Origin: Arenicella sp.
GTDB taxonomy: Bacteria; Pseudomonadota; Gammaproteobacteria; Arenicellales; Arenicellaceae
Direction of reading: 5' to 3'
Assembly: GCA_023301745.1 (NCBI GenBank)
Contig: JALZVW010000013.1
Span: forward strand, 1-62,885
DNA: 62,885 bases
Of the stretch, positions 29,039 through 55,499 are shown one piece after another. The first letter of the stretch is position 1. Each line of letters begins with the position of its first letter. Made by a program: the position numbers and the translations under genes. Below the pieces are notes generated by a model. The model did no database searches and had not been told where the DNA came from. It was given only the letters and a program-made list of their open reading frames with translations.

Positions 29039-29737
29039 TTAAAATTTAGCTAAGAATTTTTCGATACGTTTGGCGTTGGCACCAAGGTCGCTTGTACCAA
29101 TGCGTGACACTGACCGTAAATCGATGGCTGTTTTACCATTTTTCTCAGTAATTCTAACAACAATATCATCTTTAAAACCCCATATCGCTGTTGTCTCGGT
29201 TGCCTCAATAATCCCATTGGCGGCGTCAGAGTTAACCAGCTCTAAGCCCATTGACTCAATCACCGCCTTTGCGTTGGCATGCGCCTCGTTAAGCGATGAA
29301 TCGCTTATCAATGTTTTTACATTTGGGTAGGCTTTAGCTTGAATGCTCGCGAGTTCAGCAATATTGTAGGCCAATGGGTTATTCGCCTCACTACGCAGCG
29401 CAACAACCTTATCGAACGCCGGCGGGTTAACAAGGTCTGTTGAGATATTATGAATTGCAGGAACCGACTTAGCCGTAAACATCTGAGACCCTAAGCCAAT
29501 CAATGGCAGTAGCGCTATCATTGCCGCGGTTCTTGCCGATTTGGCTAAATCGACATTTTTTCTCATAATAAAAGCAGTCAACATACCGAGAAAAAAGACC
29601 ACCGCCGCCAACACGACGGTAGCGCCAAGTATTTTAAAGCTGCTGGTAAACGGGAATAAGTCTAAGCGAAAACCGACTACCGCAATTGGAAAGCCCAAAA
29701 CGGCCAAAATAGCCAGTAGTTTAAGTAATTTAATCAT
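29039..29737 (-). CDS. DUF1499 family membrane protein
   Basis: 232-aa protein with about three hydrophobic segments in the first 90 residues, then a soluble DUF1499 domain (TDLVNPPAFDKV, AIWGFKDDIVVRI, DLRSVSRIGTSDLGANA). The arginine/serine ending is the most conserved part of this family, whose function is unknown. The start has GAGAG upstream. It follows nagZ on the same strand with an 85-bp gap and may be the last gene of the long envelope operon. Confidence 0.85.
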   Translation of the reverse strand: MIKLLKLLAILAVLGFPIAVVGFRLDLFPFTSSFKILGATVVLAAVVFFLGMLTAFIMRKNVDLAKSARTAAMIALLPLIGLGSQMFTAKSVPAIHNISTDLVNPPAFDKVVALRSEANNPLAYNIAELASIQAKAYPNVKTLISDSSLNEAHANAKAVIESMGLELVNSDAANGIIEATETTAIWGFKDDIVVRITEKNGKTAIDLRSVSRIGTSDLGANAKRIEKFLAKF

Positions 29738-29822: not shown

Positions 29823-30815
29823 CTACGGTGACGCGACAAGCCTCGACAGTTTAGCCGATAAGACTTCGTTAGGTTCAAATACCAAACCTTCAAGTAATTC
29901 ATCAGCCAGTTCAGGTTTATTACACACCAACACCATATCGCAGCCGGCGTAGATTGCACGTTGGGCACTTTCAACAATCGAACCTGGCCCTTCACTAGCG
30001 TCAATTGCGCCTTGCATGGTTAAATCATCACTGAATACAACGCCTTCAAAACCGACCTCTTCACGCAGTACGCCTTGCAACCAATAACTAGAATAGGTGG
30101 GAATATCGACATCGCATTGATCAAACAAAACATGAGCGGTCATGACGCCCTGTATTTCATCAACAAGTTCTCGATATGGTATCAAATCATGCGAGCGAAT
30201 ATCATCTAAGCAGCGGTTGTCTTTTGGTAAACAATGGTGTGAATCACCGCTGACGCCACCATGGCCAGGAAAGTGCTTGGCGATTGCGACCATTCCAGCC
30301 GCATGCATACCGTCGATGTAGGCGCCTAATAACTCAGTGGCGGCATTTGGATTCGAATGAAAACATCTATCACCAATGACCTCACTACCTTTCGAGGTAA
30401 CGTCAAACACCGGTGCAAAGCTAAAATCAACCCCAACCGCAAGCAACTCAGATGCCATCGTCAAAGCCGATTGATACGCCAGCACCGGAGCGGCTTGTCG
30501 ATCAGCATTCCAATGATCGCCAAAGCTTTGAGCGGCGGGCAAGCGCGTAAACTCATCTTGGAAACGCTGAACTCGGCCACCTTCTTGATCAACAGCAATT
30601 AACAATGCAGGGGTTCTCAAAGCCTTGATATCGGCAATAAGCGAGCTCACTTGGGCCCTACTCTGATAATTTCTAGCAAACAGTATCACGGCGCCTACGC
30701 TCGGGTGCATCAGCCTCTGGCGTTCGTGGGCCGTCAACTCAAGGCCGTGTACATCTACCATTACCGGGCCGAGCGCTAAGAGTGCGCCGCTGTTTTCTTG
30801 TTTTTGTATTGTCAT
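29823..30815 (-). CDS. nagZ: Beta-N-acetylhexosaminidase NagZ
   Basis: Cytoplasmic glycoside hydrolase family 3 enzyme that removes GlcNAc from anhydro-muropeptides during peptidoglycan recycling. The 330-aa single-domain form lacks a signal peptide. The family stretch KHFPGHGGVSGDSHH holds the catalytic histidine and loop aspartate, and the nucleophile aspartate lies in VVFSDDLTM. Its ATG overlaps the stop of the YkuD gene (ATGA), so the two are translationally coupled. Confidence 0.95.
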   Translation of the reverse strand: MTIQKQENSGALLALGPVMVDVHGLELTAHERQRLMHPSVGAVILFARNYQSRAQVSSLIADIKALRTPALLIAVDQEGGRVQRFQDEFTRLPAAQSFGDHWNADRQAAPVLAYQSALTMASELLAVGVDFSFAPVFDVTSKGSEVIGDRCFHSNPNAATELLGAYIDGMHAAGMVAIAKHFPGHGGVSGDSHHCLPKDNRCLDDIRSHDLIPYRELVDEIQGVMTAHVLFDQCDVDIPTYSSYWLQGVLREEVGFEGVVFSDDLTMQGAIDASEGPGSIVESAQRAIYAGCDMVLVCNKPELADELLEGLVFEPNEVLSAKLSRLVASP

Positions 30816-31303
30816 AGTGATTCTAGAATATTGACGCTGGTACCAATCGTCACTTGCTCAAAGAGTTGGATAATATCGCTGTTTCGCATTTTGATGCACC
30901 CATGGGAACTTGGAACCCCCATAGGGTGAGAATCGGGTGCGCCATGAATATAGACATAACGACGCTGGGTATCAACGCCCCCTCCTCGATTAAAGCCTAC
31001 CTGATTACCACATAACCAAAGAATCCGGCTAAGAATCCAATCGCGATTTGGGTAAGCCGCCGCTAATGCTTCACTATAGGTTTCGCCACTCGGTCGGCGC
31101 CCTATAAACACGGTGTTAGCGATTTGGTCGGCACCAATTTTAGCTCGAATGCGATGCTTACCCAGTGGGGTACATTCGCTTCCATTAAGTTGCCCAACAC
31201 CGTTTTTGGCGGTCGAAATTCGAGCTTCAAATACTTGCTTTTTATCGCGATCAAAACCCAGCATGGCCTGATCGCTCACGCCTACTTCTAATAATTCAAT
31301 CAT
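30812..31303 (-). CDS. YkuD-domain protein without signal peptide, probable cytoplasmic L,D-carboxypeptidase
   Basis: 163-aa protein consisting almost only of a YkuD (L,D-transpeptidase) catalytic domain; the active-site motif is HPMGVPSSHGCIKMRNSD with nucleophile Cys in SHGC. There is no signal peptide or membrane segment, unlike periplasmic L,D-transpeptidases. Signal-less YkuD enzymes of the Acinetobacter ElsL type remove the terminal D-Ala of recycled tetrapeptides in the cytoplasm. The 4-bp overlap with nagZ and the presence of mpl in the same window fit that role. Substrate and direction are inferred. Confidence 0.8.
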   Translation of the reverse strand: MIELLEVGVSDQAMLGFDRDKKQVFEARISTAKNGVGQLNGSECTPLGKHRIRAKIGADQIANTVFIGRRPSGETYSEALAAAYPNRDWILSRILWLCGNQVGFNRGGGVDTQRRYVYIHGAPDSHPMGVPSSHGCIKMRNSDIIQLFEQVTIGTSVNILESL

Positions 31304-31787
31304 TGATCGGATGCTGATCTAAAATGTGATCGATCAAGGCATCACAGCCTAAGTCGACCAAATCAAAAACATGCTCAAAACCAGTGTCACCACCATAATA
31401 TGGGTCAGGCACCACGATCTCGAGCTTAGGCTGTGTTCGGGCCGCAAAATCTAAGAATAAGCGAACATCAGCGCTTGCTGATTGAGGAGCGTAATAGTGT
31501 ATCAAGTCTAAATTATCTTGGTCCATCGCCAGTACGTAGTCGAACTCGTCATGATCATGCACTGAAATTTTGCGCGCACGAATAAACTCCATATCAACGC
31601 CTTTTGACTTTGCCTTAGCACGCGACCTTGCATCGGACTTCTCTCCAACATGGTAAGCATGAGTGCCTGCCGAATCGACACTAATACGCCCATCTAGGCC
31701 TCGCATGGTCAGCTTGTGCTGCATCACGGCATGTGCCGTTGGCGAACGACAAATGTTGCCCATGCAAACAAAAAGAACCTTAATCAC
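31296..31787 (-). CDS. Low-molecular-weight protein-tyrosine phosphatase
   Basis: 163-aa cytoplasmic phosphatase. The catalytic P-loop CMGNICRS starts at Cys8 and obeys C-X5-R-S, and the general-acid aspartate lies in VPDPYYGG. The GTG start shares its last base position with the kdsB stop (TAGTG), and the 3' end overlaps the YkuD gene by 8 bp. This gene follows kdsB in many gammaproteobacteria, but its cellular substrate there is not established. Confidence 0.93.
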   Translation of the reverse strand: MIKVLFVCMGNICRSPTAHAVMQHKLTMRGLDGRISVDSAGTHAYHVGEKSDARSRAKAKSKGVDMEFIRARKISVHDHDEFDYVLAMDQDNLDLIHYYAPQSASADVRLFLDFAARTQPKLEIVVPDPYYGGDTGFEHVFDLVDLGCDALIDHILDQHPIND

Positions 31788-32518
31788 TAACCACTCACTA
31801 TTCTTCTAACGCGCTCTAAATCTTCAGCCGTATCGACACCAACGCCAGTATCATAGTCCACAATTTCCACCATTATCGAATCGCCATTATCCAGAACTCT
31901 AAGCTGTTCTAGACACTCAGTTTGCTCGATCGCACTGCGCACCAATTGATCATAGCGTTTTAAAAACGAAGCACGGTAGGCATAAATACCAATATGATGC
32001 CAGGCATTGGTGTAGCGTTCATCGCGGGCATAAGGAATTGGAGCACGCGAGAAATACAACGCTTTTCCGGCATGGCTAAACACCACCTTCACGACGTTTG
32101 GGTTCTCAATATCGGCTTCATCTTCGATCGCTTTGGCCGCGGTCGACATTACCGAGTCGCCGGCAATATCCAATGCCGCCGCCACTTGGTCTATAAGCGC
32201 CCCCGGAATCAACGGTTCATCACCTTGCACATTGACCACGATGTCATCATCGTCGAAGGCTAGTTTTTCCACCACTTCGACTAAGCGATCACTACCCGAT
32301 TCATGCTCACTGCTGGTCATGCATACTTCACAATTTAGACCGTCTAAGGCATCAGCAATGCGTTGGTCGTCGGTCGCGACGATGACCCTGCTGGCCGACG
32401 ACTCACGCGCACGGTCTACAACGTGGGCGATCATCGGTTTGCCGGCAATATCAGCAAGCACCTTGCCGGGTAAGCGATTAGAATCATAGCGCGCAGGAAT
32501 GACAACGATAAATGGCAT
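31787..32518 (-). CDS. kdsB: 3-deoxy-manno-octulosonate cytidylyltransferase
   Basis: Activates Kdo as CMP-Kdo for lipopolysaccharide inner-core synthesis. The 243-aa protein has family length, with the nucleotide-binding IPARYDSNRLPGKVLADIAG near the N terminus, then VATDD and VNVQGDEPLI. The start ATG overlaps the Trm112-family stop codon (TAATG). It belongs to the msbA-lpxK-trm112-kdsB-ptp run. Confidence 0.96.
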   Translation of the reverse strand: MPFIVVIPARYDSNRLPGKVLADIAGKPMIAHVVDRARESSASRVIVATDDQRIADALDGLNCEVCMTSSEHESGSDRLVEVVEKLAFDDDDIVVNVQGDEPLIPGALIDQVAAALDIAGDSVMSTAAKAIEDEADIENPNVVKVVFSHAGKALYFSRAPIPYARDERYTNAWHHIGIYAYRASFLKRYDQLVRSAIEQTECLEQLRVLDNGDSIMVEIVDYDTGVGVDTAEDLERVRRIVSG

Positions 32519-32688
32519 TAGCTAGCCTCCAATTCACGGGCTTCTTCTTCGAGCAACACCGGAATACCATCTCTGATTGGATAAGCCAATTTAGCCGAAC
32601 TTGATATCAATTCATTAGCATTTTTATCAAACACTAATGAACCTTTGGTCACTGGGCAAACCAACATTTCTAATAATTTATTATCCAT
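32518..32688 (-). CDS. ycaR: Trm112 family protein (YcaR-like)
   Basis: 56-aa protein from the ATG at 32688 to the TAA whose last A is the first base of the kdsB start. It reads [20 protein letters not shown] and later [18 protein letters not shown], matching the conserved Trm112/YcaR sequence. Only one cysteine of the usual zinc motif remains (CPVTKG), as in other gammaproteobacterial members. It lies between lpxK and kdsB in the usual order. The biochemical role in bacteria is unclear. Confidence 0.9.
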
Positions 32689-32702: not shown

Positions 32703-33686
32703 TCAATTTTCTTTTCTAATTTTATTAGCAACTGCATCAGCAAAACCCTCACCGATGACGGCATCAACCGGTAAATACCAGTGATGGTTAGCCGCAATGT
32801 CATTACATTTTACCGCGTCTTTCTCCGTCATCAAGACAGGTTTACCTGAAAACGATATATCATTTAGGCTGAAATGATGGTGATCGGCGAAACTGTGTGG
32901 CGTTATGCTATAGCCTAATGTTTGACAGGTATCGAAAAATCGTTGCGGATTACCAATGCCCGCCACCGCTTGCAGGTGAGAACCTTCAGGAAACACACTC
33001 TCGTTTTGCGGGTTAACAGCCATTGGCTTATTCGGTTTGAGGTGCATAGAAAACTGGTTTTCAGCATTTCCAACATCACCGCCGTGGCGCACAATAAAGT
33101 CGACACTCATTAAACGCGAAAGCGGTTCTCTGTAAGGCCCTGCGGGGAGCAAGTTATCATTTTGCTGTTCTGACGTATCGTCTATCATACATATTTCAAC
33201 ATCCCGCTCTAACGCTAGATGCTGCAAACCGTCATCACTTATGATTAAGTCGATCTGGTACTCACGCAAAAGCATTTCAATCGACGCTCGTCGGTCTGGC
33301 CCAACCGCCATAGGCACATTCGTTCTGCGAACGATCAAAGCCGGTTCATCACCCGATTCCTCGACAGAGGTATCAGCCTTAACCAACAGCGGGTAGCTCG
33401 GCGAGTCACCACTATAACCACGGCTAATCACACCCGGCGAAAAGCCACGTTCTTTTAGTTGCTCAACTAAATAGACCACTAAGGGTGTCTTACCCGTTCC
33501 GCCAACCGTCAGATTACCCACGATAACAACCGGTACAGGGGCGCGATAACAATCGAACATTCCTCGTTCGAAGGCCGTTTTGCGTAATGCAAACACACCC
33601 CGGTAGACACTCGAAAATGGGCGTAAAATGCCGGTAAGAGCATTCGGCTTAGTCCAACTTTTTAGTAAATATTTTTTGAGACCCAT
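32703..33686 (-). CDS. lpxK: Tetraacyldisaccharide 4'-kinase
   Basis: Phosphorylates the lipid A disaccharide at the 4' position on the inner membrane. The preferred start is the ATG at 33686 (MGLKKYLLKSW), giving 327 aa. The open frame extends to 33782 inside msbA, but that part is not lpxK-like. The Walker A-like motif GNLTVGGTGKTP and SDDGLQHLAL are family-typical. The gene starts 25 bp after msbA and is followed by the Trm112 protein. Confidence 0.94.
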   Translation of the reverse strand: MGLKKYLLKSWTKPNALTGILRPFSSVYRGVFALRKTAFERGMFDCYRAPVPVVIVGNLTVGGTGKTPLVVYLVEQLKERGFSPGVISRGYSGDSPSYPLLVKADTSVEESGDEPALIVRRTNVPMAVGPDRRASIEMLLREYQIDLIISDDGLQHLALERDVEICMIDDTSEQQNDNLLPAGPYREPLSRLMSVDFIVRHGGDVGNAENQFSMHLKPNKPMAVNPQNESVFPEGSHLQAVAGIGNPQRFFDTCQTLGYSITPHSFADHHHFSLNDISFSGKPVLMTEKDAVKCNDIAANHHWYLPVDAVIGEGFADAVANKIRKEN

Positions 33687-33711
33687 AGTGTCAATCGTTG
33701 AAATTAAAGAA

Positions 33712-35526
33712 TCAACGACTCCAAAAGAAAAAGCCTTTCTTAGGTGAGTTTGACTGGGCTTTATGTAAATCGGCGTACACACCGCCCATTCTCAATAGGT
33801 GCTTATGCGAACCTTGCTCGACGATCTTTCCGCGCTCGAGAACTAAAATTTTATCCGCATTTTCAATGGTTGAAAGTCGATGTGCAATAACCATAGATGT
33901 GCGCCCTTTCATCAAGGTCTCTAATGCATCTTGAACAAAACGTTCTGACTTATTATCAAGCGCTGACGTCGCTTCGTCTAAAATCAAAATCGGTGCATTT
34001 TTATAAATTGCTCGAGCTATCGCGACGCGCTGACGCTGACCACCGGACAATCGTAAACCACCCTCGCCCACCATAGTGTCTAAGCCAAGCGGCATTTCAT
34101 CCAGAAATTCACTGACGTGGGCGGCTTTGATTGCACTTTGCAAACGTGCTTCATCATACTGGTCAAGCATGCCGTACATAATATTTCGACCAATGGTGTC
34201 ATCAAACAAGGTGGTGTCTTGGCTAACCAAAGAAAATTGTGATCGCATGCCTTTTAAACAAAGGTCATTTATGTTGATGCCGTCAATCGAAATAACCCCT
34301 TTTTGGGGCTTATAAAAACGCAGAATAAGTGAAGTTATGGTTGATTTACCGCTGCCAGAGGAGCCGACCATGGCAACGCGCTCTCCTGGTTTAATCTCAA
34401 AATCTATATCTGATAGAACCGACGCTTCATCATCGTCGCGATACTTAAATTCAACTTTATCAAATTTAATACCGCCTTGAGTACTGTCAATTTTAACCTG
34501 ACCGTCATCCACTTCAGGCTTTTCATCAATCACTTGAAAAACACTATTTGCCGCCGTAACACCAATCTGAATTTTCTCATTAACTTTTGCCAAGCGCTTT
34601 AATGGGCTCATTAAGGCTAAGCACGCCATAATATAGATCGAGAACTGAACAACCGACTCTGGTCCAGTACGTAGATGGTTTAGAAAAATATATAAAATCA
34701 ACGCAATTGCGGGCGCTACCAACAGCATCGTCATGGGTACTAAGCCTGCTGAGACTTTGGCACGTCGGAGGTTCTGCTTTAGGTTAAACATATTAGCTTT
34801 AGCAAAATTTTCTTTTTCTTGAGCTTCACCATTATAAACTTTAATCACTTTATGGCCGGTCACCGCTTCTTTGACCGTATCGCCAATACCGCCCATCGAG
34901 GCTTGAATTTCTTTACTAGTCTTACGAAATCGCTTGTTAGTATAGGCGGCGACAAGAACAACTAAAGGAATCACGATGATAAAAATCAGTGTTAAACGCC
35001 AATCTGACCAAAACAACAAAATGATCAAGCCAAGCGCTTTAAATGATTCACGAAACATAATGGCTAAGGTATCGGTGATCGCCATCGACGTCGTTTCGAC
35101 ATCGTAAATTAACTTAGAGATCGTTTGAGCCGATGAATGATGATCGAAATATGGGGTTGGCAAAGAAATCATATTTCCGAAAATGTCTTGGCGTAACTCA
35201 AAAATCACTAAGCGGCCGGCTTTGGCTATTGTGTAATTGCCAATGTAGCCTGTTATGGCCCGAACCATTAATACTCCCATCAGAAGCACTCCTGACCAAC
35301 GGACAAACCAGTCGTCGCCGTTTAGGAAACCTTCTTTGAGTATTTCATCGATGAACTTTATAAACGAGGCTTCAATCGAGCCGGTTGCCATCAAGAAAAT
35401 TATCCCAACAATTAGCAAAGCTCGGTGTCGGAATAAATAGGACAATAAACGCCGCAAGGTCTGGCGTGCATCGAGGTCGACTTCAGGCACTGGTTTTGTA
35501 ACAGGTCGATCGGCTTTTTCTGACAT
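33712..35526 (-). CDS. msbA: Lipid A export ATP-binding/permease protein MsbA
   Basis: Flips core-lipid A across the inner membrane. The 604-aa half-transporter has six membrane segments in the first 330 residues. A nucleotide-binding domain follows with Walker [10 protein letters not shown], signature LSGGQRQRVAIARA, Walker B LILDEATSALD and the H-loop MVIAHRLST. Position between exbD and lpxK supports MsbA over a generic ABC exporter. It has an ATG start. Confidence 0.94.
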   Translation of the reverse strand: MSEKADRPVTKPVPEVDLDARQTLRRLLSYLFRHRALLIVGIIFLMATGSIEASFIKFIDEILKEGFLNGDDWFVRWSGVLLMGVLMVRAITGYIGNYTIAKAGRLVIFELRQDIFGNMISLPTPYFDHHSSAQTISKLIYDVETTSMAITDTLAIMFRESFKALGLIILLFWSDWRLTLIFIIVIPLVVLVAAYTNKRFRKTSKEIQASMGGIGDTVKEAVTGHKVIKVYNGEAQEKENFAKANMFNLKQNLRRAKVSAGLVPMTMLLVAPAIALILYIFLNHLRTGPESVVQFSIYIMACLALMSPLKRLAKVNEKIQIGVTAANSVFQVIDEKPEVDDGQVKIDSTQGGIKFDKVEFKYRDDDEASVLSDIDFEIKPGERVAMVGSSGSGKSTITSLILRFYKPQKGVISIDGININDLCLKGMRSQFSLVSQDTTLFDDTIGRNIMYGMLDQYDEARLQSAIKAAHVSEFLDEMPLGLDTMVGEGGLRLSGGQRQRVAIARAIYKNAPILILDEATSALDNKSERFVQDALETLMKGRTSMVIAHRLSTIENADKILVLERGKIVEQGSHKHLLRMGGVYADLHKAQSNSPKKGFFFWSR

Positions 35527-53592: not shown

Positions 53593-54153
53593 ATGTTATT
53601 TATGCCAATAATTAAACAGCTATACCAAATTTCACTCCGAAAACGCGAGCCACAAGACCTAGACTACAGTTTAGAGGCGGCGATCGTCCTGACAATAGGC
53701 ATCGCATTTCTGCGGTTTACATCGTTCTCGACAATGAGCACATTGAGCAACCCTCTTGCGTATAGTGTTGTGTCCATTATCGGTGAGTCCGCTATCATTT
53801 ATGCGGTCCTTCGCAGCCAAGGCAAAGCCAACCGTTTTGTCCAAACAATCACCGCATTGTTCGGCATCACGGTGATTGCATCAGCCGCATCGGTATTGAT
53901 GACCCTGACACTCGTACTACAACTAGCGTTGCCGATACTGCTGATATGGACATTTTATATCATGATACTCATCATGCGTTCGGCGCTCGACTGCTCTACC
54001 ATTTCATCTTTGCTATTAACCGTCGGCTATAACGCAGCGGGCTACTTACTGGTGATATTATTGTTTCCAAAATTTCAGGTTGAATTACTCACCGAGTGGG
54101 AGACGATTAAGGCGACTCTAGAAGCCGCGCAAGCTGAGGCTCAATCGAAATGA
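53593..54153 (+). CDS. Multi-spanning membrane protein of unknown function upstream of mpl
   Basis: About 186 aa from the ATG at 53593; the open frame begins with a TTG at 53572. It has roughly four or five hydrophobic segments between residues 30 and 165, then a short charged tail ending with Ala/Glu residues. No family was recognised. Its stop overlaps the mpl start (ATGA), so the two are translated together. A role near the inner membrane in murein precursor metabolism is inference from that coupling. Confidence 0.72.
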   Translation: MLFMPIIKQLYQISLRKREPQDLDYSLEAAIVLTIGIAFLRFTSFSTMSTLSNPLAYSVVSIIGESAIIYAVLRSQGKANRFVQTITALFGITVIASAASVLMTLTLVLQLALPILLIWTFYIMILIMRSALDCSTISSLLLTVGYNAAGYLLVILLFPKFQVELLTEWETIKATLEAAQAEAQSK

Positions 54154-55499
54154 GATTACATATAATCGGTGTCTGCGGCACCTTTATGGGTGGCTTGGCT
54201 CGGCTAGCGAGAGATCTCGGCATGACTGTAACCGGTTCTGACGCCAATACTTACCCACCAATGAGCACGCAACTCGAGTCGCTCGGCATCACGCTTTTCG
54301 AAGGTTATAAGCCGAGTAACATTCCTAAAAATACAGATATTGTTGTGGTCGGGAACACCATATCGCGAGGTAATCCTGAATTAGAGTCAGTCCTCGATCA
54401 AGGCTTAAAGTACACCTCTGGTGCTCAATGGCTAGGAGAGCATGTGTTGCAAGGGCGCTGGGTTCTGGGCGTTGCCGGCACGCATGGAAAAACCACTACA
54501 AGCAGTATATTAGCTTGGCTGTTAGAAGATAATGACCTGGCTCCGGGTTATCTAATCGGTGGCGTTCCCGAAAATTTCGGTGAGTCGGCTCGCCTTGGAA
54601 GCACGCCTTTTTTTGTTATCGAGGCCGACGAATACGATACCGCCTTCTGTGATAAACGCTCAAAATTCGTTCACTACCAACCCAAAACGCTGGTATTAAA
54701 CAACTTGGAATTCGACCACGCTGATATTTTCGCTGATTTAGCGGCGATTCAAACGCAATTTAATCATTTATTGAAAACCGTGCCTCAGCACGGACAGATA
54801 ATCTACAACCAAGATTCACCGGCACTCGATGAAGTACTAGAAATGGGCTATTGGAGCGAACTAAAAAGTTTTAATACTGACTCTAGCGACTGGCGTACTG
54901 AAAAAATAGAAGATGACGCCTCGCGTTTTTATATCGAACACGACAATCAAAAATACGCGGTTAATTGGAGGCTAATTGGTGATCACAACATGGCGAATGC
55001 CGTTGCGGCGATTGCCGCCGCTCACCACGTAGGGATACCCATCGCGCACTCTATCGAGTCTTTAGTTACCTTTAAGTCGGTTAAACGACGCATGGAAGTC
55101 ATTTTTAATGACCGCCATGCGCGCGTTTTTGATGACTTCGCTCACCACCCAACCGCCATCACCGAAACACTCAATGGCTTACGTCGAAGTGTCGGCGATG
55201 AAAAAATCATCGCGGTGTTAGAACCGCGCTCCAACACCATGAAACGTGGTGTGCATAAGCACTTATTAACAACCGCACTAGCGGATGCCGATCAAGTATT
55301 AATTTTTGCTGACGACAATGTTAAATGGGATATTAGCGAATTAGAATCGGCGTCTATACGTGCCTTCGACAGCACTGAACTATTATTAGAACAATTGGCG
55401 AGCTTGATCGAAGACGACCTTGGCCGTACAAACATAGTAATAATGAGCAATGGTGCATTTGAAGGCCTTTACCAACGGCTCATAGACTGTTTAAAATAG
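54150..55499 (+). CDS. mpl: UDP-N-acetylmuramate:L-alanyl-gamma-D-glutamyl-meso-diaminopimelate ligase
   Basis: Reattaches recycled murein tripeptide to UDP-MurNAc, bypassing MurC, MurD and MurE. The 449-aa Mur ligase has an N-terminal nucleotide domain (HIIGVCGTFMGGLA), the ATP P-loop GTHGKTT (110-116), VIEADEYDTAFCDKRSKF with the metal site, and the C-terminal FDDFAHHPTAI motif. The GVCGTFMGGLA start distinguishes Mpl from MurC. It belongs with NagZ and the YkuD protein in the recycling route. Confidence 0.96.
   Translation: MRLHIIGVCGTFMGGLARLARDLGMTVTGSDANTYPPMSTQLESLGITLFEGYKPSNIPKNTDIVVVGNTISRGNPELESVLDQGLKYTSGAQWLGEHVLQGRWVLGVAGTHGKTTTSSILAWLLEDNDLAPGYLIGGVPENFGESARLGSTPFFVIEADEYDTAFCDKRSKFVHYQPKTLVLNNLEFDHADIFADLAAIQTQFNHLLKTVPQHGQIIYNQDSPALDEVLEMGYWSELKSFNTDSSDWRTEKIEDDASRFYIEHDNQKYAVNWRLIGDHNMANAVAAIAAAHHVGIPIAHSIESLVTFKSVKRRMEVIFNDRHARVFDDFAHHPTAITETLNGLRRSVGDEKIIAVLEPRSNTMKRGVHKHLLTTALADADQVLIFADDNVKWDISELESASIRAFDSTELLLEQLASLIEDDLGRTNIVIMSNGAFEGLYQRLIDCLK

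Follow-up and report, generated by a model that had tools for sequence, protein, structure and literature searches.

A leaderless ElsL-class protein coupled to NagZ in Arenicella, probably a cytoplasmic L,D-carboxypeptidase of murein recycling

Few enzymes are closer to the one considered here than ElsL (LdtK) of Acinetobacter baumannii, which is reported to be cytosolic, to cleave tetrapeptides but not pentapeptides, to need C138 for this and to be functionally replaceable by LdcA of E. coli (PMC8649774, PMC9239154). ElsL orthologs are described as lying mainly in Gamma- and Betaproteobacteria, and LdcV of Vibrio as a zinc enzyme of the LAS superfamily (PMC8649774). Csd6, a YkuD protein, is described as an L,D-carboxypeptidase (PMC4599014). 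Then there is YejBEF-YepA of Agrobacterium, a muropeptide ABC importer said to take the place of AmpG in recycling, with YepA reported to be exclusive to Alphaproteobacteria (PMC9790009). The ElsL class, a known type on which few studies exist, has been in print since 2021, from Acinetobacter, and the protein described below very probably adds one member to it.

That protein is encoded in a stretch of 62,885 nucleotides from Arenicella sp., called the window in what follows. The genes that matter to the argument are these:

29039 to 29737, minus strand: DUF1499 protein gene, downstream of nagZ, a place it keeps in Arenicella relatives
29823 to 30815, minus strand: nagZ, beta-N-acetylhexosaminidase (408 bits against a cut-off of 207)
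30812 to 31303, minus strand: elsL-type gene, encoding a 163-aa leaderless YkuD-domain protein, predicted to be a cytoplasmic L,D-carboxypeptidase (Cys136, His120, His134)
31296 to 31787, minus strand: low-molecular-weight phosphotyrosine phosphatase gene
31787 to 32518, minus strand: kdsB, 3-deoxy-manno-octulosonate cytidylyltransferase
32518 to 32688, minus strand: small open reading frame between the lpxK-like gene and kdsB, which I take to resemble UPF0434/Trm112
32703 to 33782, minus strand: presumably an lpxK-like gene, named from its sequence; start possibly over-extended; order the same in Arenicella relatives
33712 to 35526, minus strand: ABC gene that I take from its sequence to be msbA-like; upstream end of the conserved run
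54150 to 55499, plus strand: mpl, UDP-MurNAc:tripeptide ligase (607 bits against a cut-off of 389); same pathway, separate locus

The elsL frame is intact, 163 codons beginning with ATG. Its start overlaps the phosphatase gene by 8 bases, and at its other end lies the 4-base overlap with nagZ that a first-pass annotation of the sequence had pointed out, with ATGA as the junction (nagZ ATG at 30815-30813, elsL TGA at 30814-30812). An in-frame stop 5 codons upstream of the ATG means that no N-terminal leader is hidden there, and residues 1-40 hold no signal-peptide-like hydrophobic stretch (the best 15-residue Kyte-Doolittle mean is 0.98). YkuD (PF03734) is the protein's sole Pfam domain, spanning residues 5-159 of 163, where its score of 74.5 bits clears the cut-off of 23.4. 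The same annotation had described a catalytic domain alone, with no signal, and that is what the gene encodes.

The assignment to ElsL, suggested at first pass, has support from the NCBIfam ElsL model, which is the best match by far (188.4 bits, E 7.6e-56, model positions 26-159 of 164) and which finds no other protein in the genome. The next-best family, an L,D-transpeptidase model, reaches 32.5 bits. Like Acinetobacter ElsL, the window protein is a leaderless lone YkuD domain with a catalytic Cys, of nearly the model's length (163 aa against 164 positions), in a genome without an LdcA match; unlike that reference it falls short of the 270 bits that NCBI requires for the name. Nor does any of 185 genomes of the same class reach 270, so I read that value as an Acinetobacter-type threshold rather than as the border of the family. 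I aligned the window protein to 34 relatives drawn from 51 ElsL loci, a set without Acinetobacter ElsL itself; L052, a fragment, was dropped, and other loci were dropped to obtain clean frames or to keep the set small. All 35 rows have Cys136 and His120, and 31 of them have His134.

The other known systems differ more. LdcA of E. coli has the same predicted reaction and pathway step, but it is an unrelated serine peptidase (S66), and the window protein matches only YkuD in Pfam. LdcV, again with the same predicted reaction, is a zinc enzyme of another superfamily. Csd6, Pgp2 and Bd1075 have the YkuD fold but are exported and carry an NTF2-like C-terminal domain, and a classical exported L,D-transpeptidase has a signal peptide or membrane anchor where the window protein has neither. 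The AlphaFold model of the window protein is a confident YkuD fold (mean pLDDT 97.6); its top structural match is B. subtilis YkuD (Z 16.4, 111 residues, 1.8 A), and further neighbours are mycobacterial transpeptidases and Csd6 (Z 14.5, 130 residues, 2.8 A). The fold alone cannot tell a carboxypeptidase from a transpeptidase. The argument for cutting over cross-linking comes from the lack of a leader and from the genomic context.

What is that context? The window's genome (95% complete, in 191 contigs) has no match to LdcA (peptidase S66; PF02016, PF17676), the absence of ldcA having been named at first pass as something to check, and none to the VanY family (PF02557), which I take to cover LdcV. 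It does have partners in recycling: AmpG in two copies, AnmK, NagZ and Mpl. The two AmpG-type permease genes, at G000:C153:7619-9100 and G000:C141:259-1755 (L054, L055), score nearly equally. No AmpD (Amidase_2) match was found in the 191-contig assembly, which is likely an assembly gap, since 27 of the 31 genomes in the search of relatives carry AmpD over the cut-off (the window's genome being among the misses) and the draft is so divided; for the same reasons I do not count it as a real loss, a true loss being possible but less likely. AmpD acts between the NagZ and Mpl steps of murein recycling. The idea that the window encodes three successive recycling steps therefore survives in part: nagZ, elsL and mpl are all real, but the AmpD step must intervene, so the three are not strictly successive, and mpl lies 23 kb from elsL, outside its run of genes.

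The genome's only other YkuD match, at C12:18244-18648, is not an ElsL but of Cds6/Csd6 type. This other YkuD protein (L002:1048-2292, on G000:C12) has 414 residues, an N-terminal hydrophobic stretch that is probably a leader, and a Cds6 NTF2-like C-terminus; its solved relatives are Bd1075 (7o21), Pgp2 and Csd6. No third YkuD protein was found in the genome. Because of this protein and its probable leader, the organism may also have a periplasmic trimming enzyme, and if it already made tripeptide stems there, an enzyme in the cytoplasm would be less needed, which counts against the reading proposed below.

If ElsL stands in for LdcA, the two should seldom be found together. Among 185 genomes of the class (165 family codes), 137 have ElsL, 21 have LdcA, 30 have neither and 3 have both, where 15.6 would be expected (Fisher p 1.3e-9, uncorrected for the non-independence of the genomes). 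A match of at least 100 bits was taken as ElsL, 23 genomes with weaker matches only (best E 1.5e-7) not being counted, and LdcA was counted over its cut-off; two ElsL genomes, G032 and G056, have LdcA-model matches below it. ElsL and LdcA thus nearly exclude each other across the class, which agrees with the earlier view that ElsL-type enzymes are used where LdcA is missing.

The link to nagZ is equally a matter of counts. Coordinates of nagZ are listed for 150 of 168 genomes, and 123 genomes, the window's own included, have coordinates for both genes. In 26 of these 123 nagZ directly follows elsL (within 200 bases), and in 56 it lies no more than 5 kb downstream of elsL on the same strand, while in the control LdcA and nagZ are within 6 kb of each other in 0 of 14. 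On these figures, uncorrected for the non-independence of the genomes, chance adjacency is rejected. Closer to home, the run msbA-lpxK-kdsB-phosphatase-elsL-nagZ recurs in L033-L037 and L040, followed by DUF1499 in L033-L036; G110 and G057 have the run with no DUF1499 match. A genome of the same genus, G143, has the layout of the window at this locus (L103 and L034 being one locus). A separate observation concerns L087 (G129), L089 (G004) and L094 (G027), where a small open reading frame of about 110 residues, common to all three and marked by the motif YIPxHxIxRIDE, sits between elsL and nagZ.

I propose that the window gene very probably encodes an L,D-carboxypeptidase of the ElsL class that works in the cytoplasm in murein recycling and stands in for LdcA. 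Lytic transglycosylases would release anhydro-muropeptides and AmpG would import them. NagZ would then remove GlcNAc and an AmpD-type amidase would free the peptide. Before, during or after this trimming of sugars, Cys136, activated by His120, would remove D-Ala4 from the tetrapeptide stem, and Mpl could then reload the tripeptide onto UDP-MurNAc. The acceptor would be water and not a second stem peptide, so the enzyme would cut and not cross-link, and in this genome it would replace LdcA. That the enzyme sits in the cytoplasm, and which reaction it catalyses on which substrate, I infer, and the activity would follow by analogy with Acinetobacter ElsL. The first-pass annotation had likewise called the product a likely cytoplasmic L,D-carboxypeptidase, and it gains from the missing leader, the match to ElsL, the lack of LdcA and VanY, the partners in recycling and the near-exclusion across the class.

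An alternative view is that this YkuD enzyme, though cytoplasmic, serves mainly to exchange D-Ala4 for other D-amino acids, or to trim UDP-MurNAc-tetrapeptide in the service of quality control, rather than to recycle in bulk. Some YkuD enzymes do perform D-amino-acid exchange, which speaks for this view. So do the Acinetobacter mutants, which are reported to accumulate aberrant cytosolic tetrapeptides and to have disturbed pentapeptide precursors (PMC8649774). The coupling to nagZ and, elsewhere, to import genes, together with the relation of replacement to LdcA, points to imported fragments as the main substrate, and I consider the alternative highly improbable as an account of the main role; exchange or quality control and recycling are not mutually exclusive.

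It is harder still to believe that the protein is an L,D-transpeptidase, exported by some unusual route, that cross-links murein or anchors proteins in the periplasm. The YkuD fold and catalytic residues are indeed common to it and to true L,D-transpeptidases. But the protein lacks a leader and its frame leaves no room for any, which is ground enough for rejection, the L,D-transpeptidase models give it 27-33 bits against 188 for ElsL, and in many lineages its gene is coupled to that of NagZ, a cytoplasmic enzyme. Finally, that elsL is a degenerate or marginal gene, functionless in this strain, can scarcely be credited: the genome does have the Cds6-type YkuD protein as well, but the frame is intact, the active site invariant, a match of at least 100 bits present in 137 of 185 genomes of the class and the gene order the same in Arenicella relatives.

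The preferred reading, of ElsL as a recycling carboxypeptidase, leads to the other genes found beside elsL in the class. In other Gammaproteobacteria there is a cluster which in full reads CYTH - SBP_bac_5 - elsL - oppB - oppC - nagZ - mscS, as at L041:3312-8461, and which occurs in full or in part in L042, L066-L076, L078-L084 and others. The gap between elsL and nagZ measures 1.7-3.1 kb in 22 sampled genomes; 20 of these gaps hold two permease genes similar to OppB and OppC of L041 (BPD_transp_1), and in 19 of the 22 genomes an SBP_bac_5-like gene precedes elsL. The two gaps without the permease pair are those of L077 and L085. In L085 (G109) an AmpG-like gene fills the gap, and the reading frame beside it, also between elsL and nagZ, is presumably rhodanese-like; one other locus of 136, L120 (G033), has an AmpG-like gene directly beside elsL.

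Those 136 loci are the ElsL genomes minus the window's own. Searched by tblastn within 6 kb of elsL, 44 of them have a DppA/Opp-like binding protein, both permeases, or all three: the binding protein in 40, both permeases in 33, all three in 29. A profile search puts the binding protein immediately upstream of elsL in 38 loci. The 44 include looser cases (L113, with the binding protein 3 kb from elsL, and L096, L097, L130 and L155, with the permeases 2-4.5 kb away), and short contigs can hide an importer link. At the window's own locus no importer genes were seen among the listed reading frames of at least 80 aa from 26 to 35.5 kb.

AmpG (TIGR00901, taken at E up to 1e-20) is present in 144 of the 185 genomes. 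It is absent from 23 of the 44 importer-linked genomes and from 7 of the 92 unlinked (p 1.6e-8, uncorrected for phylogeny). Counted over its cut-off only, it is absent from 28 of 44 and 14 of 92, and in the 95 good-quality genomes with 3.5 kb on both sides of the locus, from 16 of 29 linked and 2 of 66 unlinked. The association suggests that the importer linked to elsL is able to replace AmpG. On a FastTree phylogeny of ElsL, though, the test of linkage against absence of AmpG finds 3 independent supported pairs (4 when reversed), too few to reach 0.05, with a median p of 0.5. That 21 of the 44 linked genomes have AmpG (16 over the cut-off) counts against simple replacement.

Nor does the importer look self-sufficient, judging from the sparse ATPase genes. 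When the 44 linked loci are scanned with a strict motif for an ABC ATPase, L113 alone has one, and an MsbA query has matches in L113, L144 and L146. For most of the linked loci the ATPase gene would therefore have to lie elsewhere. As for what is imported, it again speaks against replacement that the L041 binding protein scores best with dipeptide-type proteins (about 118 bits, against 69 or less for murein-peptide-binding proteins). The L041 importer genes match several NCBIfam models for nickel, dipeptide and oligopeptide transport, of which only Opp2B passes its own cut-off, a permease model whose description is for a nickel ABC transporter. With names so ambiguous, an importer for nickel or small peptides is possible.

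The proposal that I would nonetheless put forward, at about even chances of being right, is that in many Gammaproteobacteria elsL belongs to an import-and-trim cluster, in which a DppA/Opp-like ABC importer, able to do the work of AmpG, takes up muropeptides or murein peptides and ElsL trims what is delivered. The lineage of the window would keep elsL-nagZ with no importer genes there, and use AmpG instead. Such an importer would resemble YejBEF-YepA as an ABC importer in AmpG's place, but in L041 both the binding protein and the permeases are of DppA/Opp-like kind. The main text of the Acinetobacter report contains none of the words 'nagZ', 'oppB' and 'synteny' (PMC8649774), and among open-licence PubMed Central papers, a weak negative, no published report of an elsL-importer cluster was found.

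The locus itself is a well-supported and otherwise ordinary member of the ElsL class; what is added is the pattern seen across the class, together with the hypothesis of an importer. An ElsL-class enzyme now has a place in an Arenicella-like lineage, with the pathway around it almost complete, and from the census it can be argued on genomic grounds that ElsL and LdcA solve the same step alternatively. If the importer hypothesis is true, the cluster would be a gammaproteobacterial counterpart to the YejBEF-YepA route in Agrobacterium, though built from different genes. The importer genes beside elsL are in any case candidates, open to test, for the muropeptide importer that genomes without AmpG are missing.
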